Shown in pieces: positions 31,653 to 46,183 of a DNA stretch of 64,000 nt. A program made the translations under genes and the position numbers. The notes under the pieces are model-generated. The model was not told where the DNA came from. It worked only from the letters and a program-made list of their open reading frames with translations, and did no database searches. The DNA is from Paenarthrobacter sp. GOM3 (GTDB lineage: Bacteria > Actinomycetota > Actinomycetes > Actinomycetales > Micrococcaceae), in NCBI RefSeq assembly GCF_018215265.2, contig NZ_CP136562.1, positions 62,001 through 126,000 of the forward strand, given 5' to 3'. Within the stretch, counting starts at the first letter, position 1, and each line of letters opens with the position of its first letter.

Positions 31653-32393
31653 CTACTTAAACACGGTCTGGATCGGGCCGCCGCCGGCCGAATCGACGAT
31701 CGCCTGGGCCACTACGCGGAGCTTGACGTTCCGGTTGCTGGAGGCCTTCTTGATGAGTTCCATGGCTTCGACCTGTGTGCAGCGGTTCTGGGCGATGATG
31801 ATGCCCGTTGCCACGTCGATCACCGTCCGGGATTCCATGGCGGCCCTCAGGTTGGCGGCGGTTTGGCTGTGTTGTGCAATCAGTACCGCGAGTTGAAGGC
31901 CCTTGGATGCCTGTTGGACGTAGTCGTTGGCGCGCTGCACTGCGGCCTGGTCGAAAGCGTTGGGGCGGTCGGCGTACAGGTTCAGGCCGGCCATGGCGAT
32001 GTTGTCGGACAAAGGGAAGGGTAGGGCCAGGACGGAGCGGACGCCGTGGTCGGTGATGGCCTTGTTGTACTCGGGCCAGGTGTTGTCCTTCTCGAAGTCC
32101 GGGATGTAGACCTGGGTCGCCTCGCGGCAGGCGTGCAGGCAGGGCCCATCGGCGTAGGCGTACTGGATTTCGTCGAGCAGCCGGGCACGTTCACTGCTGC
32201 TGGCGACGGTGCCGGCGTTGCGCTGCCGCATCAGGGTTATGCCGCAATACACGTCCCTTTCGGGTGTGCTGAACATGGCAGCTGAGTGACGGGCCAGCTC
32301 ATCAAGAAAGGCCTCGACGTCAGGAGTGGCGAGCAGCAGGTCCTGAATATCAGCCACCACGGAACTCGACTCGACGAGCTGTGGGTCTTCCAT
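31653..32393 (-). CDS. GAF and ANTAR domain regulator
   Basis: The 246-residue protein has an N-terminal GAF sensor domain (about 15-165, with DGPCLHACREATQVYIPDF) and a C-terminal ANTAR RNA-binding domain (about 175-245, RTVIDVATGIIIAQNRCTQVEAMELIKKASSNRNVKLRVVAQAIV). ANTAR proteins prevent transcription termination by binding paired hexaloop RNA hairpins. No such hairpin pair was found next to it. It is divergent from a stress-type sigma factor, an association that fits a signal-response pair. Confidence 0.93.
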   Translation of the reverse strand: MEDPQLVESSSVVADIQDLLLATPDVEAFLDELARHSAAMFSTPERDVYCGITLMRQRNAGTVASSSERARLLDEIQYAYADGPCLHACREATQVYIPDFEKDNTWPEYNKAITDHGVRSVLALPFPLSDNIAMAGLNLYADRPNAFDQAAVQRANDYVQQASKGLQLAVLIAQHSQTAANLRAAMESRTVIDVATGIIIAQNRCTQVEAMELIKKASSNRNVKLRVVAQAIVDSAGGGPIQTVFK

Positions 32394-32494
32394 GTGGATC
32401 TCCGATCCGTGGATGTGGCTACCTTTCGAGACTAACCCCCTGTACCCGTTGAAAGCTAATAGTAAGTGTGCTTCTCTTTTTAAGGAGTCTTGCC

Positions 32495-32527
32495 GTGGGC
32501 TCTCCCCTTATCCGGTCAAAGGATTGA
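32495..32527 (+). CDS. Possible 10-codon leader peptide of the sigma factor gene
   Basis: A strong AAGGAG (32482-32487) precedes GTG 32495 by 7 nt, and the frame closes at TGA 32525-32527 after VGSPLIRSKD. The sigma ATG follows 5 nt later. The GTG lies in a different frame from the sigma gene, so the good ribosome site does not drive the sigma protein directly. Translation of this leader could couple to or limit the sigma gene. There is no homology support. Confidence 0.4.
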   Translation: MGSPLIRSKD

Positions 32528-32532
32528 AGCCC

Positions 32533-33306
32533 ATGCGTCAAACCCGACCTTTCGACGTCAGTACCAGGCCTCCGGCTGCACCTGAAGGAAGCATCCGCCA
32601 AAGCTTTCAGGACAGCCTGGTCCTGGACCACCTCAATCTGGCCAAATCCATTGCGGCCAGGTATTCCGCCCATACCCACGACCTGGACGATGTCAGGCAG
32701 GTCGCGTACATGGGCCTCATCAAGGCCTCACGCGGCTATGACGAGTCCAAGGGCGTCAGTTTTCCTGCCTATGCTGCCCCCACCATTGCCGGTGAGGTCA
32801 AGCGGTACCTCCGTGACCATTGCTGGGTTGTCCGGCCGCCCCGCACCATCCAGGACGTTCGGCGCCAGGTGCTGGCCCGGACGGAGGAAATGACCCAGGT
32901 GCTGCAACGGACCCCCTCCCCGGAGGAAGTCGCAGAAGACCTCCGGCTGGAACCCTGCCAAGTGCGTGAAGCGCTGATGGCGGGCACCAGCAAGCGCCCG
33001 GATTCCCTGGACGCTCCCGCATCAGAGGGGCGTGAAGGCTTGCAGGGTTCCCTGTCCGCTTTTGGCTGCCCCACTGACCGCTTGGAGGACGTGCTGGCTC
33101 TCCGGAACGCCATTCGGGGGCTGAGCGCGGAGGACCGCCATCTGCTGTACAGGCGCTACTACCGCGAGGAGACGCAGTCCACGATCGCCGAGGCCCTGGG
33201 AATGTCCCAGATGCAGGTTTCACGCAAGCTTTCCAAGATCCTCGTCTCGCTCCAAACCAGACTGCTGGACGACGAAGCCCAGCTTCAGGACGGAACCGCC
33301 CCTTAG
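32533..33306 (+). CDS. Stress-type sigma-70 family RNA polymerase sigma factor
   Basis: The 257-residue protein has regions 2, 3 and 4 but no region 1.1, as in SigB/SigF/SigG proteins: region 2 is LAKSIAARYSAHTHDLDDVRQVAYMGLIKASRGYDESKGVSFPAYA, region 3 PPRTIQDVRRQV, region 4 ETQSTIAEALGMSQMQVSRKLSKIL. It should direct polymerase to stress promoters. I chose ATG 32533 (MRQTRPFDV) because the upstream open frame to 32392 encodes no conserved residues. No anti-sigma gene is beside it, but a GAF-ANTAR regulator is divergent. Confidence 0.88.
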   Translation: MRQTRPFDVSTRPPAAPEGSIRQSFQDSLVLDHLNLAKSIAARYSAHTHDLDDVRQVAYMGLIKASRGYDESKGVSFPAYAAPTIAGEVKRYLRDHCWVVRPPRTIQDVRRQVLARTEEMTQVLQRTPSPEEVAEDLRLEPCQVREALMAGTSKRPDSLDAPASEGREGLQGSLSAFGCPTDRLEDVLALRNAIRGLSAEDRHLLYRRYYREETQSTIAEALGMSQMQVSRKLSKILVSLQTRLLDDEAQLQDGTAP

Positions 33307-33343: not shown

Positions 33344-34294
33344 CTAGCAGCCCAGGCGCTCCACGGCGTCCAGGACATCGCGCACGCTCACCGCGAGGAG
33401 TGCGGGGTCGGGGTCGGCTGAGAAGACGTCGCCGCGGCGAAGTTCGACGGCGGTAAGCACCACGTGCGGGCCCGGCGGCGGACCCCATTCCTCGGCGGGT
33501 GCGGGACCAAACAAAACGACGGACGGCCGCTCATAGGCGGAGGCCAGATGAGCAGCGCCAGTGTCAGCTGAGACCACCAGCCGCGCCTCAGCGATGGTGG
33601 CCGCGAACTCGGCGAGACCCTGCCGCCCGGCCAGCAGGCCGTCGTCGAGGTTTGCTCCTTTGAGGTTGGCCAGGGCGGCCGTCTCCTCGGCGCGCCCACG
33701 CTCCGACACGCCGCCCGTCAGGACGATCCGGTGCCCTGCCGCAGCGAGTTCCACTGCGACGTCGGCGAACCGCTCCACCGGCCACAACCTGCTGCCGTAA
33801 GCCGCGCCCACGTGGATCACTGTGGCGCCGGGACTAGGCGAGGGAACGGCGGGGCGGTTCAGCCGGAAGTCCAGGGGATCGGCATCGATCCCGTGCCAGG
33901 TCAACAGCTTGGTCCAGCGCTCGCGCTCGGGCAAGCCGGTGGACCAGGGAGGTCCGGCGAGCCCGGGCGACTCATGGGCAATCACCCGCTTGGCCTGCAA
34001 CTCGTCGATCCTCAGGCGGCTCTCCGCCCCGTTTCCGTGCAGGTTCACCGCGATGTCGACCGCGCCCCGGGGTACCGTCAGCGGATCGTCGAGGCCCGGT
34101 GTGGGCAGATGGTGGATGCCTCCAACCAGTTCCAAAGCTTCAGCGATCCAGGCCGGCGCGGCGTACAGGATCCGGTGTTCGGGGAACGCCTTCCGTAGTC
34201 CCCGAAGTGCCGGAACCGCGACCAGGAGGTCGCCAAGCTTCAGGGCGCGCAGGGCGAGCAGCAAGGGTTGTTCGGTGCTATCGACAGTGTCCAT
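33344..34294 (-). CDS. Glycosyltransferase family 9 (heptosyltransferase-like), copy 1
   Basis: This 316-residue GT-B enzyme has the GT9 pattern: RALKLGDLLVAVPALRGLR at the N-terminus, VIHVGAAYGSRLWPVERFADV for the start of the C-terminal domain, and VVSADTGAAHLASAYERPSVVLFGP for the nucleotide-sugar site. GT9 enzymes typically transfer heptose from ADP-heptose in lipopolysaccharide core; in a Gram-positive the acceptor must be different. It is divergent from gmhB, across 86 bp. ATG 34294 starts MDTVDSTEQPLLLALRALK. Confidence 0.88.
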   Translation of the reverse strand: MDTVDSTEQPLLLALRALKLGDLLVAVPALRGLRKAFPEHRILYAAPAWIAEALELVGGIHHLPTPGLDDPLTVPRGAVDIAVNLHGNGAESRLRIDELQAKRVIAHESPGLAGPPWSTGLPERERWTKLLTWHGIDADPLDFRLNRPAVPSPSPGATVIHVGAAYGSRLWPVERFADVAVELAAAGHRIVLTGGVSERGRAEETAALANLKGANLDDGLLAGRQGLAEFAATIAEARLVVSADTGAAHLASAYERPSVVLFGPAPAEEWGPPPGPHVVLTAVELRRGDVFSADPDPALLAVSVRDVLDAVERLGC

Positions 34295-34380
34295 GGAGGC
34301 CTCCCGCTAGGAGTCTAGCCCCATGAAACTTCTCACGGCCGCACTGTTTAGCGTCCGGAGAACTGGGGAACGTTGCGGGT

Positions 34381-34944
34381 ATGGGAGGAACCGGAACGTT
34401 GAAGGCGGTCCTGTTTGACCGCGATGGAACGCTCGTCGTTGACGTGCCATACAACGGCGACCCGCAGCTGGTGCGGCCCATGGAAAGTGCCCGATCGGCC
34501 CTCGAAAGAGTGCGTCGGGAAGGACTGGCTACGGGCGTTGTGAGCAACCAGTCGGGCATTGCCCGTGGGCTGGTGGGACGTGCCCAGGTGGACGCAGTCA
34601 ACCAGCGGGTGGAGCAACTCCTGGGCCCGTTCGATGTGTGGCAGATTTGCCCGCACGGGCCCGAGGACGGCTGTCCGTGCCGTAAGCCCGCCCCCGGAAT
34701 GATCCTCGCCGCGTGCCGCGATCTGGGCATAGAACCGTCGGAGGCAGCCTACGTGGGTGACATCGGCGCCGATATGGACGCGGCGACGGCGGCTGGCGCC
34801 CGCGCCGTGCTGGTGCCAACGTCCGTGACCCTCCAGGCGGAGATCGAGGCCGCCGCGGTAGTCGCAGGGGACCTGGCCCACGCGGTTGAACTGCTCCTAC
34901 AAGGGGAACGTTCAGCCACGTCCAGAGAGGATGCTCCTGCATGA
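34381..34944 (+). CDS. gmhB: D-glycero-D-manno-heptose 1,7-bisphosphate 7-phosphatase-like (GmhB)
   Basis: The 187-residue HAD-IIIA phosphatase has motif I FDRDGTL (D13, D15), motif II SNQSGIARG, motif III in CRKPAPGM and motif IV GDIGADMDAA. The insert CPHGPEDGCPCRKP is the zinc-binding Cys/His cluster of GmhB and HisB phosphatases. It should remove the 7-phosphate from heptose-1,7-bisphosphate. ATG 34381 is possible, but GGAGG right after it could serve TTG 34399, giving LKAVLFDRDGTLV. Its stop overlaps the next ATG by 4 bp, the first of five such overlaps through hldE. Confidence 0.88.
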   Translation: MGGTGTLKAVLFDRDGTLVVDVPYNGDPQLVRPMESARSALERVRREGLATGVVSNQSGIARGLVGRAQVDAVNQRVEQLLGPFDVWQICPHGPEDGCPCRKPAPGMILAACRDLGIEPSEAAYVGDIGADMDAATAAGARAVLVPTSVTLQAEIEAAAVVAGDLAHAVELLLQGERSATSREDAPA

Positions 34945-36029
34945 GCCGGGTCCTGGTGGCCCGGCTGGACAGCATGGGCGATGTCCTCCTCTCCGGACCT
35001 GCGCTGCGCGCTGTGGCGAACGGAAGCCGGCCCGATGGTAGCCGCCCCAATGATGTGGTCCTGCTCTGCGGACCTGAAGGCGCGAGCGCGGCCGAGATGC
35101 TGCCCGGCGTGACCCAAGTACACACGTGGGCCTGCCCGTGGATCGTGAATCCTGCGCCCCCGGCCACGGAAGACATGACCAACGCCCTGATCGAGTTCGT
35201 CCGCAGTTCCCGCATCGAGGAAGCCCTGATCCTCACGTCTTTCCACCAATCGCCGCTTCCGCTGGCGTTGTTGCTCCGATTGGCCGGGGTCGGAAAGATC
35301 ACGGGGGCTTCCACGGATTACGCCGGTTCGCTGCTGGACGTCCGGCTCAAACCAGGCGAGGACTTCCCCGAAGACCAGCCCGAAGCAGTCCGGGCCCTGG
35401 CGCTCGCGGACGCCGGAGGGTATGTCCTGCCCAACGGCGACGACGGCAAACTGCGCATCACGCCCAACCCGGACCCGGACGACGTGGCCCAGGAACTGGC
35501 CGACGAAGGCCCGTACATTGTGGTCCACCCCGGCGCGACGGCCCCTGCCCGGGCCTGGCCTGCCCTGCACAACGCGGCAACCGTGGAACTCCTGGAAGCG
35601 TACGGGCACCGGGTGGTGGTCACCGGGGGGCCCAGCGAAACATCGCTCACGGCAACGGTTGCGGGTCCTTCGGCCAGGAACCTTGGGGGCGGAACCAACC
35701 TGCGCACGCTCGCAACGGTACTGGCGGGCGCCGCCGTCGTTGTTACCGGCAATACCGGCCCCGCCCATCTGGCCGCCGCGGTGGGAACCCCTGTGGTGTG
35801 CCTGTTCGCGCCGGTGGTTCCGGCTATCCGCTGGGCGCCGTACGGCGTTCCCATGGAGTTGCTGGGCGACCAGGAAGCGGCGTGCAAGAACACCAGGGCC
35901 CGGACCTGTCCCGTGCCGGGGCATCCGTGCTTGAGTTCGGTCACCCCGGAGCAGGTCCTGGAGGCTGTCGAACGGTTGCTGGGCGGCGTGTCCTCGCTCT
36001 CCACCCGACGGAAGGTCTGGAAACCATGA
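34941..36029 (+). CDS. Glycosyltransferase family 9 (heptosyltransferase-like), copy 2
   Basis: This 362-residue GT-B enzyme starts MSRVLVARLDSMGDVLLSGPALRAVA, has VVHPGATAPARAWPALHNAATV at the domain hinge and VVVTGNTGPAHLAAAVGTPVVCLFAP for donor binding, all typical of GT9. The C-terminal CKNTRARTCPVPGHPCL has four cysteines and resembles a feature of some actinobacterial GT9 proteins. It is translationally coupled to gmhB upstream and to the next glycosyltransferase, both by ATGA overlaps. Its acceptor is not known. Confidence 0.9.
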   Translation: MSRVLVARLDSMGDVLLSGPALRAVANGSRPDGSRPNDVVLLCGPEGASAAEMLPGVTQVHTWACPWIVNPAPPATEDMTNALIEFVRSSRIEEALILTSFHQSPLPLALLLRLAGVGKITGASTDYAGSLLDVRLKPGEDFPEDQPEAVRALALADAGGYVLPNGDDGKLRITPNPDPDDVAQELADEGPYIVVHPGATAPARAWPALHNAATVELLEAYGHRVVVTGGPSETSLTATVAGPSARNLGGGTNLRTLATVLAGAAVVVTGNTGPAHLAAAVGTPVVCLFAPVVPAIRWAPYGVPMELLGDQEAACKNTRARTCPVPGHPCLSSVTPEQVLEAVERLLGGVSSLSTRRKVWKP

Positions 36030-37087
36030 GGATCCTGGTGTGGCACGTCCACGGCGGATGGATGGAAGCGTTCGTCCGGGGCCGGCACGAATACCTCCTG
36101 CCCACACTGCCCGACGGCGGCCCGTGGGGTTTGGGTCGCGGCGGACGTGACTGGCCGCTCACCGCCCAGGAAGTGGACCTGGCGACGCTGGATCCGGACA
36201 GCGTGGACGCCGTTGTCCTGCAACGGCCGGAGGAAATCGCGGCAGTCGCCAAGGCCTTGGGCCGCCGCCCCGGAGTGGACGTTCCGGCGGTCTACCTGGA
36301 ACACAACACCCCCAAGGGCGATGTCCCCTTTTCGCTCCATCCGCTTGCCGACCAGGGCAGCATCCCGGTGGTCCACGTGACCCATTTCAACCAGCTCTTC
36401 TGGGATACGGGCTCGGCTCCCACGGTCGTGATCGCGCACGGGATTCCGGATCCAGGGCACCTCTACACCGGTGTTCAGGAGGAGCTGGGCGTGGTGGTCA
36501 ACGAGCCCGTCCGGCGTGGACGGGTCACCGGGACGGACTTGCTTCCCGGCTTCGCCCGGGTTGGACCTTTGCGGGTGTTCGGGATGGGCACGGAAGCTTT
36601 GCCGTCGGCTTTGGACCTCGGCAGCCACGGCCTGGGCGGGGATCGAATCCGGATCGCGGGCGACGTTCCAGCCGCCCGCCTCCACCGGGAACTGGCCAGA
36701 TGCCGTCTCTACCTGCACCCGCTGCGCTGGACCTCGCTGGGACTTGCCCTGTTGGAGGCGATGCACCTTGGCATGCCCGTCGTTGCGCTCGCCACCACCG
36801 AAGCAGCCCGGGCAGTCCCGCACGGTACCGGCCTGGTGTCCAACGACGTCGACGATCTCCAAAGGTTCGCGCGGCGCCTCCTGGACGACCCCGATGACGC
36901 CTACGCGATCGGTATGAGGGCCCGGCAGGCAGCACTGGAACGCTACGGCCTGGGCAAATTCCTCCGGGCCTGGGACGAGCTCCTTGCCGATCTCCCCGCC
37001 AAGCATGGACACCGCCCGCAATCCGGGCATGTACCCGTCAGCCACCACACCCAGGCCAGCCATGACACCGAGAGGATGCACCCATGA
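36026..37087 (+). CDS. Glycosyltransferase, GT4-like
   Basis: The 353-residue protein has a degenerate N-terminal GT-B half (MRILVWHVHGGWMEAFVRGRHEYLLP...) and a C-terminal donor half with TSLGLALLEAMHLGMPVVALATTEA, matching the GT4 EX7E region. The N-terminal domain is less conserved, so the family is less certain than for its neighbours. The open frame that extends back to 35126 runs inside the preceding gene and is not real. It overlaps both neighbours by 4 bp and is part of the heptose operon. Confidence 0.82.
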   Translation: MRILVWHVHGGWMEAFVRGRHEYLLPTLPDGGPWGLGRGGRDWPLTAQEVDLATLDPDSVDAVVLQRPEEIAAVAKALGRRPGVDVPAVYLEHNTPKGDVPFSLHPLADQGSIPVVHVTHFNQLFWDTGSAPTVVIAHGIPDPGHLYTGVQEELGVVVNEPVRRGRVTGTDLLPGFARVGPLRVFGMGTEALPSALDLGSHGLGGDRIRIAGDVPAARLHRELARCRLYLHPLRWTSLGLALLEAMHLGMPVVALATTEAARAVPHGTGLVSNDVDDLQRFARRLLDDPDDAYAIGMRARQAALERYGLGKFLRAWDELLADLPAKHGHRPQSGHVPVSHHTQASHDTERMHP

Positions 37088-38352
37088 AAATCTCCATGGT
37101 CTCCGAACACGCCAGTCCGCTGGCCGCCCTGGGAGGCGTCGACGCCGGTGGACAGAACGTCCACGTAGCGGCGCTCTCGTCCAGCCTGGCCGGGCGCGGC
37201 CACCAAGTCACGGTCTACACGCGGCGCGACGACCCCGATCTGCCGGCAAAGGTGCAGGTGGGCCCGGGACTGACTGTGGTGCACATCGACGCGGGTCCGG
37301 CCCGGCACATCCCCAAAGACGATCTCCTGCCGTTCATGGGCGAGTTGGCGGACGGGATCTGCGCGGACTGGGGCGATGACCTCCCGGATGTTGTGCACGC
37401 GCATTTCTGGATGTCCGGGCTGGCAGCGATCCAGGCCTCCAAACGTGCCGGAGCCGCCGACCCCGTGCCCGTGGTCCAGACTTTCCACGCCCTTGGTTCG
37501 GTCAAGCGCCGCCACCAGGGCTCCGCGGACACCAGCCCACCCGCCCGGGCCTGGTTGGAGCCGTGGGTGGGCCGCACCGCGGATTGGGTCATCGCCACTT
37601 GCCCCGATGAGGTCTTCGAACTCAAGGCCCTGGGCATCAGCCGATCCAAGATCTCCATTGCCCCCTGCGGTGTGGACCTGACGCTGTTCCCCGGAACGTC
37701 CGACGCCGAACCCACCTCGCGCACGCATCGGATCCTGAGCGTGGGACGCCTCGTGCAACGCAAGGGGGTGGACCTGATCATCCGCGCACTCCCACTCCTG
37801 GCGGACGCAGGCTTCAACGATGTGGAGTTGCTGATTGTGGGCGGTTCCGGTGACGCGCTCACCCTTGAGGAAGATCCCGAAGCGCAGCGCCTTCATGCCC
37901 TGGCCAAGGAACTCGGCGTCGAAGACAAGGTGACCCTGCGCGGACAGGTTCCCAGGGATGCGATGCCGGGCATTTTCCGCAGCGCCGACGCCGTGGTGTG
38001 CACCCCCTGGTATGAGCCGTTCGGGATCGTGCCGCTCGAGGCCATGGCCTGCGGGGTGCCCGTGGTGGCGGCCGCCGTGGGCGGACTTCGGGAGACCGTC
38101 GTCGACCAGAAAACGGGCTTGCACGTCCCGCCGCGGGACCCGGAAGCGATAGCCGAGGCGGTGGGGAAGCTACTCGCCGATCCCGCCCTGCGGGCCGAAA
38201 TGGGCCGAGCCGGCGCACGCCGTGCCCGCTCGCGCTACACCTGGGACAGGATCGCCGCGGACACCGAGAAAGCCTACCGATCCGTCCTGGCTGCCGGCCT
38301 CTCCCGGCAAGCAGGCGATGGTGTGGAATCACTGGAAGGAACGGCACTGTGA
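37084..38352 (+). CDS. Glycosyltransferase family 4
   Basis: The 422-residue retaining GT-B enzyme starts MKISMVSEHASPLAALGGVDAGGQNVHVAALSSSLA, the usual GT4 start with GGQNVHV, and has VVHAHFWMSGL, SIAPCGVDLTLF, and the catalytic EPFGIVPLEAMACGVPVVAAAVGGL. It resembles the MshA and sucrose/trehalose-type subgroup rather than the LPS type. It overlaps the preceding and following genes by 4 bp. It probably adds one sugar to the heptose-containing glycan. Confidence 0.92.
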   Translation: MKISMVSEHASPLAALGGVDAGGQNVHVAALSSSLAGRGHQVTVYTRRDDPDLPAKVQVGPGLTVVHIDAGPARHIPKDDLLPFMGELADGICADWGDDLPDVVHAHFWMSGLAAIQASKRAGAADPVPVVQTFHALGSVKRRHQGSADTSPPARAWLEPWVGRTADWVIATCPDEVFELKALGISRSKISIAPCGVDLTLFPGTSDAEPTSRTHRILSVGRLVQRKGVDLIIRALPLLADAGFNDVELLIVGGSGDALTLEEDPEAQRLHALAKELGVEDKVTLRGQVPRDAMPGIFRSADAVVCTPWYEPFGIVPLEAMACGVPVVAAAVGGLRETVVDQKTGLHVPPRDPEAIAEAVGKLLADPALRAEMGRAGARRARSRYTWDRIAADTEKAYRSVLAAGLSRQAGDGVESLEGTAL

Positions 38353-39029
38353 CCATCAACAGCCATGTGGCCAGCGAAGCAACACTGCCCCCCACCGCCC
38401 TGCCCCGGTGGACTCCCGACACCAACGGGCCCACCCACCAGAAGGCTGTGACAACCCACCTGGACAACGTCCTGCCCGCACTTGAATCCCTGCGCTCGCA
38501 ATCCGGGCGGTTGTGTGAGTGGGGGACCGAACTCGCCAACCGGCTGCTGTCGGGGCACCGGCTGCTGGCTGCCGGCAACGGCGGATCGGCAGCCGAAGCG
38601 CAGCACCTCACAGCTGAGCTCGTGGGCAGGTTCGACGACGAACGGGCTCCCTTCTCGGCGATTTCCCTCCACGCCGAATCGTCAGCCGTGACGGCGCTCT
38701 CCAACGACTACGGCTACGAGGAAGTGTTCGCCCGCCAGGTCAGGGCCCACGGCCGTGCCGGTGACATCCTGGTCCTCCTGTCCACCAGCGGACGCAGCCC
38801 CAACCTGCTCAAAGCGGTCCGCGCTGCCCGGGAACGCGGCATCACCACCTGGGCCCTCACCGGAACGGGCCCCAACCCACTGGCCGACGCCTGCGACCAA
38901 GCGATCACCGTGGACGCCATCGCCGCCAACGCCCAGGAAGGCCACCTTATTGCGGTCCACGCCGTCTGCCGGGCCTTCGACGCCGAGGTGGCACGGCGGA
39001 CCGGCCCTTACGCCGGTGGGCAGCCATGA
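38349..39029 (+). CDS. gmhA: Sedoheptulose-7-phosphate isomerase-like (GmhA), SIS domain
   Basis: The 226-residue SIS-domain protein has the GmhA sites: LLAAGNGGSAAEAQHLTAELVGRF, with His and Glu in the zinc position, AISLHAESSAVTALSNDYGYEEVFARQV, LSTSGRSPNLLKAV, and QEGHLIAVH near the C-terminus. GmhA turns sedoheptulose-7-phosphate into D-glycero-D-manno-heptose-7-phosphate, the first step of ADP-heptose synthesis. An N-terminal extension of about 30 residues is unlike E. coli GmhA. It overlaps GT4 and hldE by 4 bp on either side, so the product and its next enzyme are made together. Confidence 0.9.
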   Translation: MTINSHVASEATLPPTALPRWTPDTNGPTHQKAVTTHLDNVLPALESLRSQSGRLCEWGTELANRLLSGHRLLAAGNGGSAAEAQHLTAELVGRFDDERAPFSAISLHAESSAVTALSNDYGYEEVFARQVRAHGRAGDILVLLSTSGRSPNLLKAVRAARERGITTWALTGTGPNPLADACDQAITVDAIAANAQEGHLIAVHAVCRAFDAEVARRTGPYAGGQP

Positions 39030-40426
39030 GGATCACGGTGGTGGGTGACGTCCTCCTCGACGTGGATATCAACGGCGCCGCCACCCGCCTCAGCCCTGAC
39101 GCCCCGGTGCCCGTGGTGGAGGTCGCAGGCATCCGCCGCCGTGCAGGAGGAGCCGGCCTGGTGGCCACGGTCCTTGCCCAGGACGGTCACGACGTGACGC
39201 TGGTCACGGCCCTATCGGACGACGATGGCGCAAGCCACCTCAGGCGCGCACTGGCCGGTGTGTCGGTGCTCGCCGGAGCTCCACTCGCCCCAACCCCCAC
39301 CAAGACCCGCGTACGGATCGGGACCCACCCGATGGTTCGTTTCGACGAAGGGTGCGCACCGGCGCCCGTTCCGTCCAGCACTCCCGCGATGCTTGCGGCG
39401 ATCACCTCCGCCGAGGCTGTGGTCGTGGCCGACTATGGCCGTGGAATCACCGCCAACACAGCGATCCGCGCCACCCTGGCCGAGGTTGTTGGCCGCACCC
39501 CGGTGGTGTGGGACCCGCATCCTGCCGGTTCCGAACCCGTGCCCGGAGTCGCCGTCGTGACCCCCAACCTGGCCGAAGCCCTTGCCTCCGCCAAAGCGGG
39601 CGGACTCGACCCAGCCCGGACCGGTGCCGGGGAAGCTGCCCAACACCTGAGGGAAAAGTGGCAGAGCGACGCCGTGTTGGTCACCAGGGGCGAGGACGGG
39701 GCGGTATTGTTCGAAGCATCCGGCGGACCCGTGGCAATTCCCGCCCCCAGGACATCAGTGAGCGATCCGTGCGGCGCCGGTGACCGGCTCGCGGGGAGCC
39801 TGGCCGTGTACCTGGGCCTTGGGCTTGAACTGCCCGAAGCCGCAGCGAGGGCCGTGGAGGATGCTTCGGCCTTCCTCGCCAGGGGCGGCGCGGCGGCGCT
39901 GCCGGAAGCACCGGCGGTGAGTCCCGCCGTCGAACTTAACAACCGTGAACCCATCCGCGCTCAAAGCCACAGCCACGACGGCGTCCAACTCGCCCGAACC
40001 ATCCGCGACGCAGGCGGAACGGTGGTGGCAACCGGGGGTTGCTTCGACCTCCTCCACGCCGGCCACGCCCGAACACTGGCGGCGGCACGCAGCATGGGCG
40101 ATTGCCTGGTGGTGTGCCTCAACTCTGACGAATCCGTCAGGCGGCTCAAGGGCGCACATCGCCCCATTGTCAGCGTCGAGGACCGTGCGGAGCTGCTCCT
40201 GGCACTCGAATGCGTCGACGCCGTGGTGATCTTCGACGAGGACACTCCCGAGGCCTGCCTCACCGGGATCCGGCCCGATATCTGGGTCAAGGGCGGGGAC
40301 TACGAACCCGATGAACTGCCGGAAGCCCGCCTCGTTGCGGGCTGGGGAGGGCGATGCGTCACAGTGCCCTTCCACCCGGCACGCTCCACCAGCGGCCTGG
40401 CTGCAGCACTGGCCAAAGTCAGCTGA
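39026..40426 (+). CDS. hldE: Bifunctional heptose-7-phosphate kinase/heptose-1-phosphate adenylyltransferase (HldE-like), copy 1
   Basis: The 466-residue fusion protein has an N-terminal ribokinase/PfkB kinase domain (about 1-300, GDVLLDVDINGAATRLSPDAPVPVVEV... DPCGAGDRLAGSLA) and a C-terminal cytidylyltransferase-like domain (about 325-466, ATGGCFDLLHAGHARTL with the HxGH motif, IWVKGGDYEPDEL). This is the HldE/RfaE layout that phosphorylates heptose-7-phosphate at O-1 and attaches AMP. It overlaps gmhA by 4 bp. It is shorter than its second copy, and the kinase active-site Asp is retained in the GAGD motif. Confidence 0.92.
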   Translation: MRITVVGDVLLDVDINGAATRLSPDAPVPVVEVAGIRRRAGGAGLVATVLAQDGHDVTLVTALSDDDGASHLRRALAGVSVLAGAPLAPTPTKTRVRIGTHPMVRFDEGCAPAPVPSSTPAMLAAITSAEAVVVADYGRGITANTAIRATLAEVVGRTPVVWDPHPAGSEPVPGVAVVTPNLAEALASAKAGGLDPARTGAGEAAQHLREKWQSDAVLVTRGEDGAVLFEASGGPVAIPAPRTSVSDPCGAGDRLAGSLAVYLGLGLELPEAAARAVEDASAFLARGGAAALPEAPAVSPAVELNNREPIRAQSHSHDGVQLARTIRDAGGTVVATGGCFDLLHAGHARTLAAARSMGDCLVVCLNSDESVRRLKGAHRPIVSVEDRAELLLALECVDAVVIFDEDTPEACLTGIRPDIWVKGGDYEPDELPEARLVAGWGGRCVTVPFHPARSTSGLAAALAKVS

Positions 40427-40458
40427 CCCACGAGTTGGAAATCAACGAAAGGAACCGC

Positions 40459-41154
40459 ATGAACACGCAATCACCTGGCCGCGTCATCGTCACTGGAGGC
40501 GGCTCCGGCCTTGGAGCAGCAATCGTGGAAGCCATCCGGGACGCCGGCGGTACGCCGTTCGTCTTCGACCGGGACGTCAGCAACGTCTCGGGTGCCAAGG
40601 CCCTGGAAGTGGACGTTTCCAACCGCGAAGCAGTGGAAGCTGCCGTCAAGGAAGCCGCGGACCGCCTGGGCGGCCTGGACGCGGTGGTCACTGCGGCCGG
40701 GATCGACCGCTGCGGAAAGCTCGGCGACGTCCCCGCGGAGGAGTGGGAGAAGGTCATTGGAGTGAACCTCCTCGGCACGGTCTCCGTGATCCGTGCCGCG
40801 CTCCCATACCTTAAGGGATCCCGCGGACGCGCAATCACCATCGCGTCCACGCTGGGCCTCCGCGCCCTGCCGGACGCCACGGCCTACTGCGCCTCGAAGT
40901 TCGGCGTGATCGGTTTCAGCCGCGCCCTCGCAGCGGAGACCGGGGGAGTCATCGGCGTCACCACCATCATCCCGGGCGGCATGAAGACCCACTTCTTCGA
41001 CGACCGCGATGAGCAGTACAAGCCGCAGGACGACTCCAAACTCAACGATCCCGCCAATGTGGCCCAGGCCGTGGTGTTCGCCCTCTCCCAGCCGTTCGGC
41101 AGCGAGGTGCGCGAACTCCTCATCACCCCCGCAGAAGAAGGCTCGTGGCCGTAA
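40459..41154 (+). CDS. Short-chain dehydrogenase/reductase in the heptose operon
   Basis: This 231-residue classical SDR has TGGGSGLGAA near residue 15, DVSNREAVEAAV, and the catalytic YCASK (Tyr-x-x-x-Lys). It is too short and too different to be HldD, the ADP-heptose 6-epimerase, which is an extended SDR. It might oxidise or reduce a sugar in the pathway. ATG 40459 follows AAAGGAA; the open frame to 40354 overlaps hldE. It converges with the third GT9 gene, and the ends overlap by 32 bp. Confidence 0.85.
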   Translation: MNTQSPGRVIVTGGGSGLGAAIVEAIRDAGGTPFVFDRDVSNVSGAKALEVDVSNREAVEAAVKEAADRLGGLDAVVTAAGIDRCGKLGDVPAEEWEKVIGVNLLGTVSVIRAALPYLKGSRGRAITIASTLGLRALPDATAYCASKFGVIGFSRALAAETGGVIGVTTIIPGGMKTHFFDDRDEQYKPQDDSKLNDPANVAQAVVFALSQPFGSEVRELLITPAEEGSWP

Positions 41155-42286
41155 GGTCCAGCACGTCCTGAACAACGTCGGCCACGGCGATGCCCTCAAT
41201 GAGGGTGTCGTCGTGGCCGCAGTGCGGAGCGGTCCAACCCACCTGCGTCACATCGGACCCGCAGCGTGGGCAGTGAGTCACCCAGGACATGTGGACGCGG
41301 TGCAGGCTTCGTCCCCGCGGTGCGGCATTGAACGCATTGCCCACCCAATAGATGCCGACTGTCGCGGTGCCAACAGCCTGCGCCAAATGCCGGGGCCCGC
41401 TGTCGCTGGCAAGCATCACGGTGGCCTCGGCCAGAAGTGCCGCCAACTCGCCGATGTCCAATTCGCCTGCGACTGATCGCACCGCTTGCCGGTCCGTAGC
41501 TGGGAGTTGGCGAACCGCCAACTCCGCTACTTCCTGGGCCAAAGCCTTCTCGGAGCGATCGCCCACCACCAGCACCTGGGCACCTTCGGCCGCCAAGGAG
41601 GCAGCCGCCTCAGCGAAGTTCGACGCCGGCCAACGACGTCGTGGATCGGTGGCACCAGGGTGGATGACCACCAGGGAATTCCGGGTTTGGTCCCGCAGGC
41701 CAGCAACGTCCTGCCGGTGGTCAGCGCGTGGCCGCAGCGGCGGCGACATCACTGTGGGTGCCCCGGCGAGGCCCGCCACTTCCAGCCACCTGTCAGGTTC
41801 GTTCTGGTAATAGACGTAGTCGAGGTTCCGTTCCAAAGGCAGGGCATCCTTGGTGCGCGTTCCCACGGTGTGCCGCGCCCCCAGCTTGAGGAGGAAGGGA
41901 TTGGAAAACCGTCCACCTCCGTGCATCTGGACGGCCAGGTCAAACGCTTCAGCGCGCATCGCCTCGAAGAATTCCTGCTGGGCAGCAACGTCCTCAGCGT
42001 CGTCGTCGAAACGCTCGCCGTTGCGGGGGCCATCGTGGACGCCGCGCGCCACGGGCAACATCACGACGTCGTCGACAGGCCCCGTGGTTGCTTCCGCCAC
42101 TGCCGCATGGACCGGTGTTCCCAAGAGCGTGATGGTGGCATCCGGGTAGGCGACCTTCAGGGCATGCAGGGCCGGGTAGGTGTAGATCAGGTCTCCCAAA
42201 CCGCCACCCCTGAGGACTGCGATCCGTTTCACGCCGCCGAACTTTTCCAGTACGGGACCTATGCCGGTGCCAGCAGGAACGTCCAT
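41123..42286 (-). CDS. Glycosyltransferase family 9 (heptosyltransferase-like), copy 3
   Basis: The 387-residue protein has IAVLRGGGLGDLIYTYPALHALK, VVIHPGATDPRRRWPASNFAEAAASL and VMLASDSGPRHLAQAVGTATVGIYWVG, the GT9 pattern. Near the C-terminus it carries CPRCGSDVTQVGWTAPHCGHDDT, a short Cys/His cluster that may bind zinc. ATG 42286 has AAGGGAAG upstream on the minus strand, so the open frame to 42433 was rejected. It shares its 3' end with the SDR gene and is divergent from the second hldE, with 130 bp between starts. Confidence 0.9.
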   Translation of the reverse strand: MDVPAGTGIGPVLEKFGGVKRIAVLRGGGLGDLIYTYPALHALKVAYPDATITLLGTPVHAAVAEATTGPVDDVVMLPVARGVHDGPRNGERFDDDAEDVAAQQEFFEAMRAEAFDLAVQMHGGGRFSNPFLLKLGARHTVGTRTKDALPLERNLDYVYYQNEPDRWLEVAGLAGAPTVMSPPLRPRADHRQDVAGLRDQTRNSLVVIHPGATDPRRRWPASNFAEAAASLAAEGAQVLVVGDRSEKALAQEVAELAVRQLPATDRQAVRSVAGELDIGELAALLAEATVMLASDSGPRHLAQAVGTATVGIYWVGNAFNAAPRGRSLHRVHMSWVTHCPRCGSDVTQVGWTAPHCGHDDTLIEGIAVADVVQDVLDLTATSLLLRG

Positions 42287-42416
42287 GGTCGCTTCCCTTC
42301 TCCAATGGCTCTTCAACGGCTTTTCACTGGCGGAAACTGCCCGGCCCGGCGTGTGAAGCGCGCACCGCGGGGTACCTGTCGGGAACAGGAACATGCCGCC
42401 AACCGGAAGGTACCCC

Positions 42417-43937
42417 ATGGCACGCCTATCCAATCAAGAAGGCTTGGCTGACTGGTTGCCAGGTCGTTTGGCCGAGGAACGTCCTGTTGTGACGGTCATC
42501 GGCGATTCCATCCTGGACGGCTGGTGGGATGGAATTATTGAGCGGTTCTGCCGCGAAGCGCCTGCCCCCGTGGTCCAAGTGCAGCGCCGCGACTTCGCGC
42601 CTGGAGGGGCAGCCAACACAGCCATGAACCTGGCTGCGATGGGAGCGGATGTACGGTTCGTCTCCGTTGTGGGAGAAGACTCCGCGGGCCTGCAGCTCCT
42701 TGAACGGCTCGAGGACGCCGGCGTGGACGTCTCCCACGTCGTATCCCATCCGGGGATGGTCACCACCACCAAATACAGGGTCAGCAGCGGAGGACAAGTG
42801 ATGCTGCGCCTGGATGACGCAGCCACTGAGTTGCCGGCTGAGGGACTCGAAGTGATGGCCGCGTTCGTACCGGAAGCCATTGAGGGCGCTGCTGCGGTGG
42901 TGCTGTGCGATTACGGTACGGGTGCCCTGGGAGGGCCCGCCCGCTCGGCACTCCTCGACCTTCTGGCTCCCGCGAAGCGCAAGGACAGGCTGGTGGTGGT
43001 TGATGCCCACGATCCCGGCGGCTGGTCACAGTTGAAGCCAGACCTCGCCACCCCAAACGCGCAGGAAGCCTCACGCTTGCTTGGCGTCGAATTCCCGGGA
43101 GGCGCCGCGCGGTGCCCCTTCGTAGAAGCCCACGCGGAGCAGCTCGTCCGCGCCTCCGGTGCGGCCGCCGTCGTCGTAACACTGGACCGGGAAGGAACGC
43201 TGACGTTGAAGTCCGGCACCGATACCGGCGAGGTTGCCACCCACCGGACCTGGGCCCGCCCGCAAGCCGAGAAGCAGGCCTCCGGCGCGGGCGATACCTT
43301 CGTGGCTGCCTTGACCCTGGCCCGCGCTGCCGGCCTGCCGCTGACCACCAGCGTCGACCTTGCCCAGGCCGCTGCCGACGTCGTGGTCCACCGGCCAGGC
43401 ACGTCGGTTTGCACTACCGAGGAACTGACGCGGCACCTGAGTGGGTTCGCGGATACGGCACTGACCGCAGCGGAGTTGGCGCGGCAGGTCGAAGAGCACC
43501 GCCGTGAGGGCCGCAGGATAGTGCTGACCAACGGATGCTTCGACGTCCTGCACCGCGGCCACACCCGCTACCTCAACCAGGCCAAGCAACTGGGTGATGT
43601 TCTGGTGGTGGCCCTGAACAGTGACTCGTCGGTGCGGCAGCTCAAGGGACCGGACCGGCCCGTCAACCACGAGGCCGACCGGGCCGCCGTGATTGCTGCC
43701 CTCAGTTGCGTGGACCACGTAACGGTCTTCGACACTCCAACACCCATACCGTTGATCGAGCTTCTCCGGCCTGACGTCTATGCCAAAGGCGGCGACTACA
43801 CGCCGGAAATGTTGGCAGAAACCGTGGCTGTGGAACGCTGCGGCGGCACCGTGACCATCCTGGACTACGTGCCCGAGCACTCCACCACGGCCGTACTGGA
43901 ACGTATCCGCTCGACGGGCGACAACCCGCAACCCTGA
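42417..43937 (+). CDS. hldE: Bifunctional HldE-like kinase/adenylyltransferase, copy 2
   Basis: The 506-residue protein repeats the HldE layout: an N-terminal ribokinase-like domain (VTVIGDSILDGWWDGIIERF, FAPGGAANTAMNLAAMGADVRFVSVVGED, VVLCDYGTGALGG, ASGAGDTFVAALTLA) and a C-terminal nucleotidyltransferase domain (LTNGCFDVLHRGHTRYLNQAKQLGDVLVVALNSDSSVRQLKG, YAKGGDYTPEML). It matches the canonical HldE signatures more fully than copy 1, including the GGAANTAMN loop. ATG 42417 follows GGAAGG at 7 nt; ATG 42393 is an alternative. Why two copies are needed is unclear: one may act on a different sugar or nucleotide. Confidence 0.92.
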   Translation: MARLSNQEGLADWLPGRLAEERPVVTVIGDSILDGWWDGIIERFCREAPAPVVQVQRRDFAPGGAANTAMNLAAMGADVRFVSVVGEDSAGLQLLERLEDAGVDVSHVVSHPGMVTTTKYRVSSGGQVMLRLDDAATELPAEGLEVMAAFVPEAIEGAAAVVLCDYGTGALGGPARSALLDLLAPAKRKDRLVVVDAHDPGGWSQLKPDLATPNAQEASRLLGVEFPGGAARCPFVEAHAEQLVRASGAAAVVVTLDREGTLTLKSGTDTGEVATHRTWARPQAEKQASGAGDTFVAALTLARAAGLPLTTSVDLAQAAADVVVHRPGTSVCTTEELTRHLSGFADTALTAAELARQVEEHRREGRRIVLTNGCFDVLHRGHTRYLNQAKQLGDVLVVALNSDSSVRQLKGPDRPVNHEADRAAVIAALSCVDHVTVFDTPTPIPLIELLRPDVYAKGGDYTPEMLAETVAVERCGGTVTILDYVPEHSTTAVLERIRSTGDNPQP

Positions 43938-43948
43938 GGAATTCCGCC

Positions 43949-44983
43949 ATGCGCATTGTGATCACTGGAGCCACCGGACACGTCGGGACGGAGGTCCTGA
44001 AGCGGCTTCAGGCGGCCCGCTCAGAGGAAGGCGCCGACCTTGAACTGGTAGGCGTGGTCCGTCGCCACCCCGACCAGGACGCCGCCCCGTACCGGAACGT
44101 CGACTGGCGCACGCTGGACATCGGCGCCAACGTGGACCAGCCGGCCTTGGAGGCTGCGTTGTCCGGGGCGGATGCCGTGGTGCACCTTGCCTGGTTGATC
44201 CAGCCGAACCACCACCGGGAAATGCTCCGGCAAACCAACGTGGCAGGAACGGCAAATGTCTTGGCTGCGGCACGGAAAGCCGGGGTTCGGCACATCGTGT
44301 GTGCTTCCTCGGTGGGTGCGTACTCTCCGGCTCCGAAGGACCAGCGAACCCAGGAGGGCTGGCCCGCAGCCGGGATCCCGAAGTCGCACTACAGCGTGGA
44401 TAAGGCCGCGCAGGAGCGGCTCCTGGACGATTTCGCGAAGGACAACCCGGACATTGTGGTGGCCCGGCTTCGTCCGGCATTGACGTTCAGCGCCGGAGCC
44501 GGGAGTGAGGTGGGGCGGTACTTCCTGGGCCGCCTCCTGCCCCGGCTGGTACCGCCTAAGCCGTGGTTCCCGTTGCTCGCCCTGCCTAAGGAGCTGGTGT
44601 TCCAGGCGGTGCACGCGTCCGACGTCGCCGACGCCTACTGGCGCGTCCTCGAGCGCAAGGCGGAGGGCGCTTTCAACATAGCCGCCGAGCCCGTCATCGA
44701 CCCCAATGCCCTGGCATGGACCTTCAACACCCGACGGCTGCTGCCATTCCCGCTTCCGGTGCTGCGCGCCGTCGTCGAGGTCAGTTGGCGGCTCCGCCTC
44801 CAGGCGACCGACGGCGGCTGGGTGGACATGGCCGCGAACGCGCCCATCATGGACACGGGACGCGCACGCAGGCTGCTGGGTTGGTCGCCTAAGCATTCAT
44901 CGCTGGAATCCCTGGCCGAAATGCTGGACGGGCTGGGGACGGGGAAGGGCCGGAAAGCATCACCGCCGCTCAAGCCCCGCTAG
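43949..44983 (+). CDS. NAD-dependent epimerase/dehydratase family protein (extended SDR)
   Basis: The 344-residue extended SDR starts MRIVITGATGHVGTEVLKRL with the GxxGxxG motif, and has the catalytic YSVDKAAQE (YxxxK) and a typical substrate-binding C-terminal half ending FNIAAEPVIDPNALAWTFN. It follows hldE by 11 bp, so it may be the last step of sugar modification, or an unrelated reductase. It does not begin with the HldD-type signature MIIVTGGAGFIGSN and is unlikely to be ADP-heptose epimerase. It converges with FUSC, with 1 bp between. Confidence 0.82.
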   Translation: MRIVITGATGHVGTEVLKRLQAARSEEGADLELVGVVRRHPDQDAAPYRNVDWRTLDIGANVDQPALEAALSGADAVVHLAWLIQPNHHREMLRQTNVAGTANVLAAARKAGVRHIVCASSVGAYSPAPKDQRTQEGWPAAGIPKSHYSVDKAAQERLLDDFAKDNPDIVVARLRPALTFSAGAGSEVGRYFLGRLLPRLVPPKPWFPLLALPKELVFQAVHASDVADAYWRVLERKAEGAFNIAAEPVIDPNALAWTFNTRRLLPFPLPVLRAVVEVSWRLRLQATDGGWVDMAANAPIMDTGRARRLLGWSPKHSSLESLAEMLDGLGTGKGRKASPPLKPR

Positions 44984-44984
44984 C

Positions 44985-46067
44985 CTACTCGGCGGACAAC
45001 ACCACGGTGAGGATCCGCCGCAGGCTCATGGCCACCGACGCCGGCGCGTTCACTGGGGACTGTCCCGCGGCGGCCTCGGCCACTGCATCGCTCAGCGCGG
45101 ATATCGAGTCCTTCGCCTCCGTCAACAGGGTGCCGAGATCATTCGATTCGCCGTCCCGCCAATGGTCAATGACCAAGGCCGTGGACTCCAACGCGTCCGA
45201 AAGGTAGCCCACCAGGGCGTCGGGGATGACCGTCCCCGCGTCCCTCTCCCAGATGGCGCTCGCAAGGACGTCGGTGATGTCCTGGACGTGGAACGTGAGC
45301 CGTTCCAACGTCCGTAAACCAGCCAGGTCGCCAGGCAATCGGGTTGCCAGGCGCCGGGATCGGGGGTTCGCCTTTGCACTCAGTTCGGCTTGGTGGACAG
45401 CAGTCCGGACGCCGGCGGCCGTCAGGGAAAGATCGTCGCTCCTGCTGGCCCACGCTTCATGGTTGGGGGGCCACGATTCCTCCATGGCCCGTGCCATGTC
45501 CTTGAGCTGCCGGGAGAGTGCGTCCTGGTGGCCGCTGATGGCGGGATCGATGTCGTCCAGGTGCAGCGGGGGAATCACCAACCAGTTCACGGCGAATCCC
45601 ACCGTCACCCCCAGGGCCATTTGGAGGACATACCCGAAGGAGAAGCCCTCTGCGTTCGAGCCGCCCAGCACCAGCACGAACAGTGCAGCCATGGGGATCC
45701 AGTCCGACCCCGATCCCAGGCGTGGAAGGCCGCCGATCAGCACTCCCAGCCCAACCACCAGCGCCACGGAGAAGGAGTTGGGTTCGGCAAAGGAAGTGAC
45801 AACGAAGGCCATGCCGATCCCGAGGACCAGCCCGGCGAGGCTCTGCAACCCGTGCTTGGCGGAGTCCGCCACAGTGGGATGCATGCTGACCAATGCGCCC
45901 AGCGGCGCGTAGTAGGGGTAGGCCGCGGCAGGACCGGGCATGTAGGGGGCAAGCCACCAGGCAAGACCTGCTGCAACCGCTGTTTTGGCGGCAAGGAGGA
46001 TCCGGTGTCTGGTGATGGTTTTCCGAAGCGCGGGAATCAGCCGCCGCCTGAAGGGCATGTGGCTCAT
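44985..46067 (-). CDS. FUSC/aromatic acid exporter family membrane protein
   Basis: The 360-residue protein has five or six N-terminal membrane segments (AKTAVAAGLAWWLAPYM, YPYYAPLGALVSMHPTVADS, FVVTSFAEPNSFSVALVVGLGVLIGGL, ...) and a soluble helical C-terminus, a layout of the FUSC/ArAE group of efflux proteins, the half with TM segments followed by a long helical domain. No substrate is known. ATG 46067 gives MSHMPFRRRLIPALRKTI. ATG 46133 is an alternative with GAAAAG just upstream. It is divergent from the envelope operon across a 22-bp inverted repeat. Confidence 0.8.
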   Translation of the reverse strand: MSHMPFRRRLIPALRKTITRHRILLAAKTAVAAGLAWWLAPYMPGPAAAYPYYAPLGALVSMHPTVADSAKHGLQSLAGLVLGIGMAFVVTSFAEPNSFSVALVVGLGVLIGGLPRLGSGSDWIPMAALFVLVLGGSNAEGFSFGYVLQMALGVTVGFAVNWLVIPPLHLDDIDPAISGHQDALSRQLKDMARAMEESWPPNHEAWASRSDDLSLTAAGVRTAVHQAELSAKANPRSRRLATRLPGDLAGLRTLERLTFHVQDITDVLASAIWERDAGTVIPDALVGYLSDALESTALVIDHWRDGESNDLGTLLTEAKDSISALSDAVAEAAAGQSPVNAPASVAMSLRRILTVVLSAE

Positions 46068-46183
46068 CGATCCAACGTTCGCAGGTATTCCTGGAAGTGT
46101 CGAGCGGGACTGTGCTTCATGTGATGCGACCATCTTTTCAAAATTGCGCGATTAGAACAGTGGCAAGCGGGTACACAACCATT

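Follow-up and report, generated by a model that had tools for sequence, protein, structure and literature searches.

A putative heptose-glycan island of Paenarthrobacter sp. GOM3 as a probable rearranged relative of a Streptomyces cwg-type operon

The present work concerns an island of about 11.6 kb at positions 33344-44983 of a 64,000-nucleotide stretch of DNA of Paenarthrobacter sp. GOM3, which comprises bases 62001-126000 of a one-contig genome of 4,464,400 bases and is called the window in the following. In the island are found, in this order, the genes of GT9c (minus strand), GmhB, GT9a, GTx, GT4, GmhA, HldE1, SDR1, GT9b (minus strand), HldE2 and SDR2, i.e., putative enzymes for the activation and transfer of heptose together with two short-chain dehydrogenase/reductase (SDR) proteins. 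Heptose is best known from Gram-negative outer membranes. Since the organism is an actinobacterium, the acceptor is expected to be other than lipid A. The island is compared here with the cwg operon (SCO6179-6190) of Streptomyces coelicolor and its relatives.

Genes of the island and their products

The start codons in the coordinates given here are our own choice. The plus-strand series begins with the gene of GmhB, the putative heptose-1,7-bisphosphate phosphatase (34381-34944, at the position of cwgD; NF006506 116.4 bits, cut-off 178), which is followed by GT9a, a heptosyltransferase-type glycosyltransferase (34941-36029, cwgE position; PF01075 86.7 bits), GTx, a GT4-type glycosyltransferase (36026-37087, cwgF position by its place in the conserved order; PF13692 50.8 bits), GT4, a glycosyltransferase distantly related to MshA (37084-38352, cwgG position; PF00534 155.1 bits; TIGR03449 249.9 bits, cut-off 462.5), GmhA, the putative sedoheptulose-7-phosphate isomerase, with a GTG start (38349-39029, cwgH position; TIGR00441 151.6 bits, cut-off 209.45), and HldE1, a putative fused heptose-7-phosphate kinase and heptose-1-phosphate nucleotidyltransferase (39026-40426, cwgI position; NF008454 299.8 bits, cut-off 521). 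The five junctions of these six genes (gmhB/GT9a, GT9a/GTx, GTx/GT4, GT4/gmhA and gmhA/hldE1) are 4-bp overlaps. SDR1, a classical short-chain dehydrogenase (40459-41154, plus strand; PF00106 140.0 bits), likely starts with the ATG at 40459, 32 bases past the hldE1 stop and with no overlap, so that the seven-gene operon with 4-bp overlaps described in an earlier note on this DNA holds for six genes, with SDR1 as a close seventh.

Behind SDR1, and convergent with it, lies the gene of GT9b, the third GT9 (41123-42286, minus strand; PF01075 86.8 bits), which overlaps the 3' end of SDR1 by 32 bases. It is followed on the plus strand by HldE2, again a kinase/nucleotidyltransferase fusion, which shares about 35% identity with HldE1 (42417-43937, the start at 42417 being probable; NF008454 350.4 bits, cut-off 521), and by SDR2, of the extended SDR/epimerase family (43949-44983; PF01370 89.4 bits). 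At the other end, GT9c (33344-34294, minus strand; PF01075 79.4 bits) would correspond to the cwgJ position but is upstream and reversed here; it is 38-46% (tblastn) to the GT9 gene behind HldE1/SDR1 in other actinobacterial families, and likewise in Streptomyces. The earlier note placed GmhA, GmhB, two HldE, three GT9 and two other glycosyltransferases within 34381-44983; all are indeed present, with one of the three GT9, GT9c, lying just outside that range. A PF01075 search of the genome finds exactly three GT9 places, all in the island, and with HldE1 as the query two HldE places are found at E <= 1e-20, namely hldE1 and hldE2. Among the best 120 of 3859 matches, the nearest to HldE2 is that of Arthrobacter sp. 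LFS091 (94%), then those of Paenarthrobacter (86% and below).

The heptose assignment of the four enzymes is well supported by their families and motifs. GmhA matches phosphoheptose isomerases or DiaA in 15 of 16 PDB hits, and H, E, Q and H stand at what we take to be the zinc-site positions in all 104 aligned rows, the window included. GmhB has its best PDB matches in a HAD hydrolase and in heptose-bisphosphate phosphatases, and both the DRDGT (DxD) motif and the C-P-H...C-x-C zinc loop are invariant in the 79 aligned rows, again with the window among them. The GAGD kinase motif and the HxGH nucleotidyltransferase motif are kept in HldE1 and HldE2 of the window, and the best NCBIfam matches of all the four proteins are heptose enzymes. 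The only heptose equivalog model exceeded is that of domain II (TIGR02199) by HldE2, with 192.9 bits against a cut-off of 181.5, domain II of HldE1 lying just below at 180.8 bits.

In a tree of 53 HldE rows with midpoint root, from which four too-short matches (L051, L061, L066 and L068) were left out, HldE1 belongs to one cwg clade of 38 rows (support 100/100), seven of them from Streptomyces, and the HldE2-like proteins, with 12 rows (95/55), group separately on the E. coli HldE side. The idea that HldE2 is a recent duplicate of HldE1 is thus ruled out by the tree. At the STTR5 position HldE1 has an arginine in the window, as in 9 of 9 rows of the window genus and 24 of 29 others, the rest of the STTR5 motif being not exact in the window (F-H-P-A-R-S-T-S). 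HldE2 has a histidine there in the window, and an arginine is present in 8 of the 12 HldE2-like rows. The STTR5 arginine was linked to the use of CTP and UTP by Tang et al. 2024, according to a commentary (PMC11461863). With the arginine of HldE1, the activated sugar may be ADP-, CDP- or UDP-heptose, and the ADP-heptose-type pathway of the earlier note, which the families and motifs support as far as an activated heptose is concerned, is perhaps too narrow in its 'ADP'.

Conserved order and the link to cwg

In a phylum sample of 296 genomes an HldE1 relative at E <= 1e-20 was found in 38, the window genome included, and stretches of up to 20 kb around 40 HldE1-relative places were compared, with gene order counted by tblastn. 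The order that recurs in these 40 places, with variations, is carbamoyltransferase, about 1 kb with GT2, gmhB, GT9a, GTx, GT4, gmhA, hldE1, SDR1 and GT9c. When named genomes were scanned with an HldE of Streptomyces as the query, 338 relatives were found, and the best 80, which were kept, are all from Streptomyces. In 71 of the 80 the epimerase, carbamoyltransferase, gmhB, GT9a, GTx, GT4, gmhA and hldE stand in this order, although in five of the 71 the match to one gene is split in two. The other 9 loci are truncated by contig ends. The order gmhB-GT9-GT-GT4-gmhA-hldE on one strand is also that of the window. Such a comparison of synteny, which the earlier note had suggested, finds the order from gmhB to hldE1 conserved across actinobacterial families and the named Streptomyces loci, which excludes chance as the source of the gene set.

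The commonest full Streptomyces order comprises 12 genes, with a GT2 between the carbamoyltransferase and gmhB, and has the same size as SCO6179-6190. Counting along the 12 genes, GT9a would be SCO6183, gmhA would be SCO6186 and hldE would be SCO6187. SCO6183 (cwgE) is described as a putative heptosyl transferase (PMC5882110), SCO6186 as a phosphoheptose isomerase and SCO6187 as a bifunctional synthase/transferase (PMC5839063). In S. coelicolor the cwg operon is under the envelope-stress sigma factor sigma-E and is induced by vancomycin, with the cell wall glycan only predicted (PMC6767563). The published 29-base sigma-E cwg promoter (Table 1 of the same article) was searched for with at most 5 mismatches; of the 80 loci, 70 hold at least 400 bases at the place concerned, and in 12 of these 70 the pattern occurs 142-213 bases before the epimerase match with 1-5 mismatches, the 10 shuffled patterns giving no match in the same 80 loci. 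The gene count, the annotations and the published promoter together argue strongly that the operon of the 80 Streptomyces loci is the counterpart of S. coelicolor cwg. The statement in the earlier note that no function had been described for this set can thus not be kept, since a counterpart is found in the Streptomyces cwg-type operon.

Read in this way via other Streptomyces, the window shares with cwg the six genes gmhB, GT9, GT, GT4, gmhA and hldE in one order, the GT9c gene and an HldE1 of the same clade, and one operon-bearing Streptomyces genome (G246) likewise has HldD below the cut-off. By contrast, GT9c of the window has been moved upstream and reversed, whereas the cwg-type GT9 (cwgJ) sits directly behind hldE; the window adds SDR1, GT9b and HldE2; and its locus is without the epimerase, carbamoyltransferase and GT2. 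These three were not found in the stretches of any of the 9 window-genus loci in the locus search, and the carbamoyltransferase was not found in any of 27 window-genus genomes, while that search did match 4 of the 5 other genomes that it covered. All of the 12 PDB relatives of the operon's carbamoyltransferase are carbamoyltransferases, TobZ among them; another is GdmN, which we take to be described as a carbamoyltransferase too. From these relatives and from the absence in the window genus, the ancestral glycan was likely O-carbamoylated and that of the window is likely not.

A rule that loci without carbamoyltransferase have HldE2 was considered and is suggestive only. It is followed by the 9 genus loci, and also by two genomes (G204 and G279) in which the loci without carbamoyltransferase (L055 and L051) are accompanied by HldE2-like genes elsewhere (L068 and L069); but the stretch of G441 is a core with neither gene and locus L073 holds both. 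This last locus (L073:1789-12134) is a cwg-like cluster with carbamoyltransferase and GT2 in which an HldE2-like enzyme replaces the HldE1-type one. It is also noted that in 22 loci, all outside Streptomyces, GT2 and GmhB lie in one open frame with no stop between (L049:4043-5551 and 21 further loci), as a natural GT2-GmhB fusion, and that GmhB of the window genus stands alone.

HldD, the SDR proteins and the site in the window genus

No HldD-like gene was seen in the earlier note, and a whole-genome search with TIGR02197 agrees with this, the best of seven matches in the window genome having 133.5 bits against a cut-off of 274.6. HldD over the cut-off was found in none of 44 genomes with HldE relatives (the window genome included, and some of them matching only half of HldE) and in 2 of 14 control genomes. 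In the window genome, a region of less than 16 kb (C1:2332602-2348288) holds the top HldD-like epimerase match, a further epimerase match and the only flippase-type match over the cut-off, which suggests a separate polysaccharide locus.

The suggestion that a local SDR might take the place of HldD is strengthened for SDR1. It lies no more than 400 bases from HldE1 in all 9 genus loci and in 19 of 26 other-family loci with HldE1, and in none of the 80 Streptomyces loci, and the residues N, S, Y and K, which we take to be those of its active site, are present in 30, 31, 31 and 31 of 31 rows. Compared with the PDB, it matches 574 sequences at E <= 0.001, the 60 listed all being general SDRs without a hint of the substrate. 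SDR1 is the best candidate for a heptose-modifying enzyme other than HldD. SDR2 as a pathway member is set aside: at L175 (genome G298), where a related sigma factor (49%) is present and the heptose genes are missing, SDR2 remains beside the sigma factor, so that it probably only adjoins the unit without belonging to it.

Among 150 genomes of the window genus, HldE1 (at E <= 1e-90) is found in 93, HldE2 (at E <= 1e-60) in 93 and both in 92, i.e., the two occur together in 92 of the 94 genomes with either, and in 93 of 94 when G412, which does have HldE1 on reading, is counted; the genomes are related, and the cases are not independent events. G412 is one of the 57 genomes under the HldE1 threshold. 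In 90 of the 92 genomes the pair lies on one contig and, without exception, on the same strand, the gap between the two having a median of 2384 bases. All 9 genus loci compared hold HldE2 and 6 of the 9 also hold GT9b, and in G441 the core lies at the same site without HldE2, GT9b and SDR2. In-frame stops are present in the HldE2 matches of G364 and G424 and in both HldE1 and HldE2 of G416 (C1:3496516-3501596), where it is as if the unit were decaying together.

The island is flanked on the left by a sigma factor (32392-33306, plus strand; Sigma-70 regions 2, 3 and 4; 82% in L174) and on the right by a FUSC-like membrane protein (44985-46133, minus strand; PF13515 35.3 bits; 83% in L174), both kept at an empty site. 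At that site, L174 of genome G317, the ANTAR gene, the sigma factor and the FUSC gene are adjacent with nothing between; in the window their counterparts, with 82-85% identity to L174, are separated by the island. Of the 12 genus genomes without HldE that were searched for the flanking sigma factor, two (G317 and G298) gave a match, and the site was read in those two.

Several further observations concern these surroundings. The GAF-ANTAR regulator and the sigma factor with regions 2-4 (31653-33306), which adjoin the island, are both retained where the island is missing, and a similar sigma factor (46-51%) borders the island in other members of the genus. A protein of about 300 amino acids with no Pfam match at E 0.001 stands behind hldE2 in one part of the genus (loci L046, L079, L081, L082, L083 and L085), is 82-88% identical to the L083 copy and persists in L175, where the heptose genes are missing. 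An aldehyde dehydrogenase is present beside HldE2 in 6 of the 9 window-genus loci, and not in the window. A different actinobacterial cluster, L074:7981-18303, has GmhA and GmhB within a single open frame, behind which come HldE2-like, GT9, SDR1-like, aldehyde dehydrogenase and GT9b-like genes.

Proposed pathway, alternatives and implications

We propose that the island is related, with rearrangements, to an operon of Streptomyces, likely cwg, and that it serves to build an activated heptose into an envelope glycan, and give this reading a probability of roughly 0.7. The reactions, the product and its place in the envelope being what we infer, the pathway would run as follows. GmhA would isomerise sedoheptulose-7-phosphate, the kinase half of HldE1 or HldE2 would form the 1,7-bisphosphate, GmhB would take off the 7-phosphate, and the nucleotidyltransferase half of HldE would then give the nucleoside diphosphate (NDP)-heptose. 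With no HldD found, the heptose would keep its D,D configuration unless C6 or another position is a target of SDR1. GT9a, GT9b and GT9c would transfer the heptose and the two GT4-type enzymes would transfer other sugars. The envelope is favoured as the destination because of the regulation of the operon in Streptomyces and its glycosyltransferases, and the envelope-type product expected in the earlier note is in this way supported by analogy.

Several points weigh against this reading. GmhA, GmhB, HldE1 and HldE2 all score under the NCBIfam whole-protein equivalog cut-offs, so that their exact substrates are not assured, and GT9a, GT9b and GT9c all score under the cut-offs for lipopolysaccharide (LPS) heptosyltransferases. 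GT9a differs from GT9b and GT9c in the x-[ST]-G/A-x-x-H motif, with N instead of their D in 105 of 105 rows, a replacement that could mean another donor, and the GT9 family also includes N-acetylglucosaminyltransferase activity (PMC12113805). Moreover, the check for a flippase or polymerase that the earlier note had proposed recognised neither among the island genes by Pfam, the PF01943 and PF03816 matches lying elsewhere in the genome, where there are four LCP-family genes and one flippase-type match over the cut-off; with neither in the island, a glycolipid or a small heptoside may be the product. As to the link with S. coelicolor, it runs through other Streptomyces and not through its own locus sequence, SCO6182 at the gmhB position is labelled a putative dehydratase, which fits more poorly (PMC5839063), and 58 of the 70 loci holding that stretch have no match to the cwg promoter within 5 mismatches. 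Finally, since three cwg parts are absent from the locus, the window and Streptomyces can hardly make an identical product.

The alternative that survives best, although we consider it unlikely, is that the product of the island is no polymer of the wall or capsule but a small secondary metabolite or glycolipid that contains heptose. Heptose pathways for septacidin and hygromycin B were reportedly described in Tang 2018 (cited in PMC10221265 and PMC10948575), starting, by the cited title, from sedoheptulose-7-phosphate. Streptomyces fimbriatus and S. hygroscopicus are stated to make ADP-heptose for septacidin and hygromycin B in a review (PMC10221265), so that there is a precedent for activated heptose in a Gram-positive, and the island would resemble these pathways in this and in the starting sugar. 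Such a fate would also be in line with the variable presence of the island within the genus, of which 93 of 150 genomes have HldE1 at the threshold used, and with the fact that no lipid-carrier glycosyltransferase was recognised in it by Pfam, just as no flippase or polymerase was. Those pathways, however, serve secondary metabolites, and no scaffold or nucleoside-antibiotic genes were recognised by Pfam among the island genes and the four neighbours scanned; five glycosyltransferases without a recognised scaffold-making enzyme rather suggest an oligosaccharide. In addition, the core order is common to many actinobacterial families, unlike a strain-specific metabolite cluster, and the control of S. 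coelicolor cwg by an envelope-stress sigma factor and its induction by vancomycin (PMC6767563) point to the envelope.

Another alternative, which is quite improbable, takes HldE2 and GT9b as a redundant second copy with no role of its own. The core of G441 that lacks both, the 3 of 9 genus loci in which GT9b is missing and the in-frame stops in the HldE2 matches of G364, G416 and G424 would fit with it; but HldE2 of the window is intact, with GAGD and HxGH kept, is no recent duplicate by the tree, and accompanies HldE1 in 93 of 94 genomes. The least probable of all is that the HldE, GmhA and GT9 proteins act on another sugar, e.g., a hexose or an unusual ketose, with no heptose made, as the low whole-protein scores, the deep HldE1 clade apart from E. 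coli HldE and the N of GT9a might suggest, because all four heptose-route activities are encoded together, the GmhA and GmhB motifs are kept in all of the 104 and 79 rows, the best NCBIfam matches of the four proteins are heptose enzymes, and such enzyme sets from several kingdoms are reported to make ADP-heptose (commentary PMC11461863).

Compared with other known systems, the proposed heptose-glycan pathway shares GmhA, GmhB, a fused HldE, GT9 enzymes and the catalytic motifs with the Gram-negative LPS-core ADP-heptose pathway (GmhA, HldE, GmhB, HldD and WaaC/WaaF), and differs from it in the lack of an HldD match over the cut-off and in the scores under the whole-protein equivalog cut-offs. 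Tridomain NDP-heptose synthetases of actinobacteria are, by the title, reportedly the subject of Tang 2022. These are described as having isomerase, kinase and nucleotidyltransferase in one chain (PMC11573728) and are likewise NDP-heptose enzymes in actinobacteria; by that description the window differs, its GmhA being separate and its HldE two-domain. NDP-heptose enzymes across kingdoms were treated by Tang 2024, according to the commentary PMC11461863. No word beginning 'heptose' occurs in PMC6767563 and PMC13011467, no description of the cwg glycan was found among the literature matches listed, and the literature search found nothing joining a carbamoyltransferase and heptose in an actinobacterial gene cluster. 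On heptose in Arthrobacter there was nothing useful among the matches listed (the best 20 of 77 and the best 15 of 33).

A wider proposal, which we regard as rather unlikely, is that Actinobacteria widely make an HldD-independent heptoglycan; that SDR1 would be a new heptose epimerase or reductase replacing HldD outside Streptomyces; that in the window genus two HldE, an NTP-promiscuous HldE1 and an ADP-specific HldE2, would supply two differently activated heptoses to three GT9; and that a two-heptose glycan would there replace the O-carbamoylated ancestral cwg glycan.

The locus is real, coherent and conserved; the operon type is already known, its chemistry being unsolved, and the arrangement in the window is new. 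The first two targets that became known for the envelope-stress sigma factor of Streptomyces included the cwg operon, which is vancomycin-responsive and whose glycan is only 'predicted' in the literature examined. With the present reading, the cwg glycan becomes a testable chemical claim, namely that of an activated heptose on an envelope glycan, likely O-carbamoylated where the carbamoyltransferase is kept. The putative pathway extends well beyond Streptomyces, and the Arthrobacter-type bacteria, in which the island is present in some and absent in others, with one clean empty site, provide natural comparisons.

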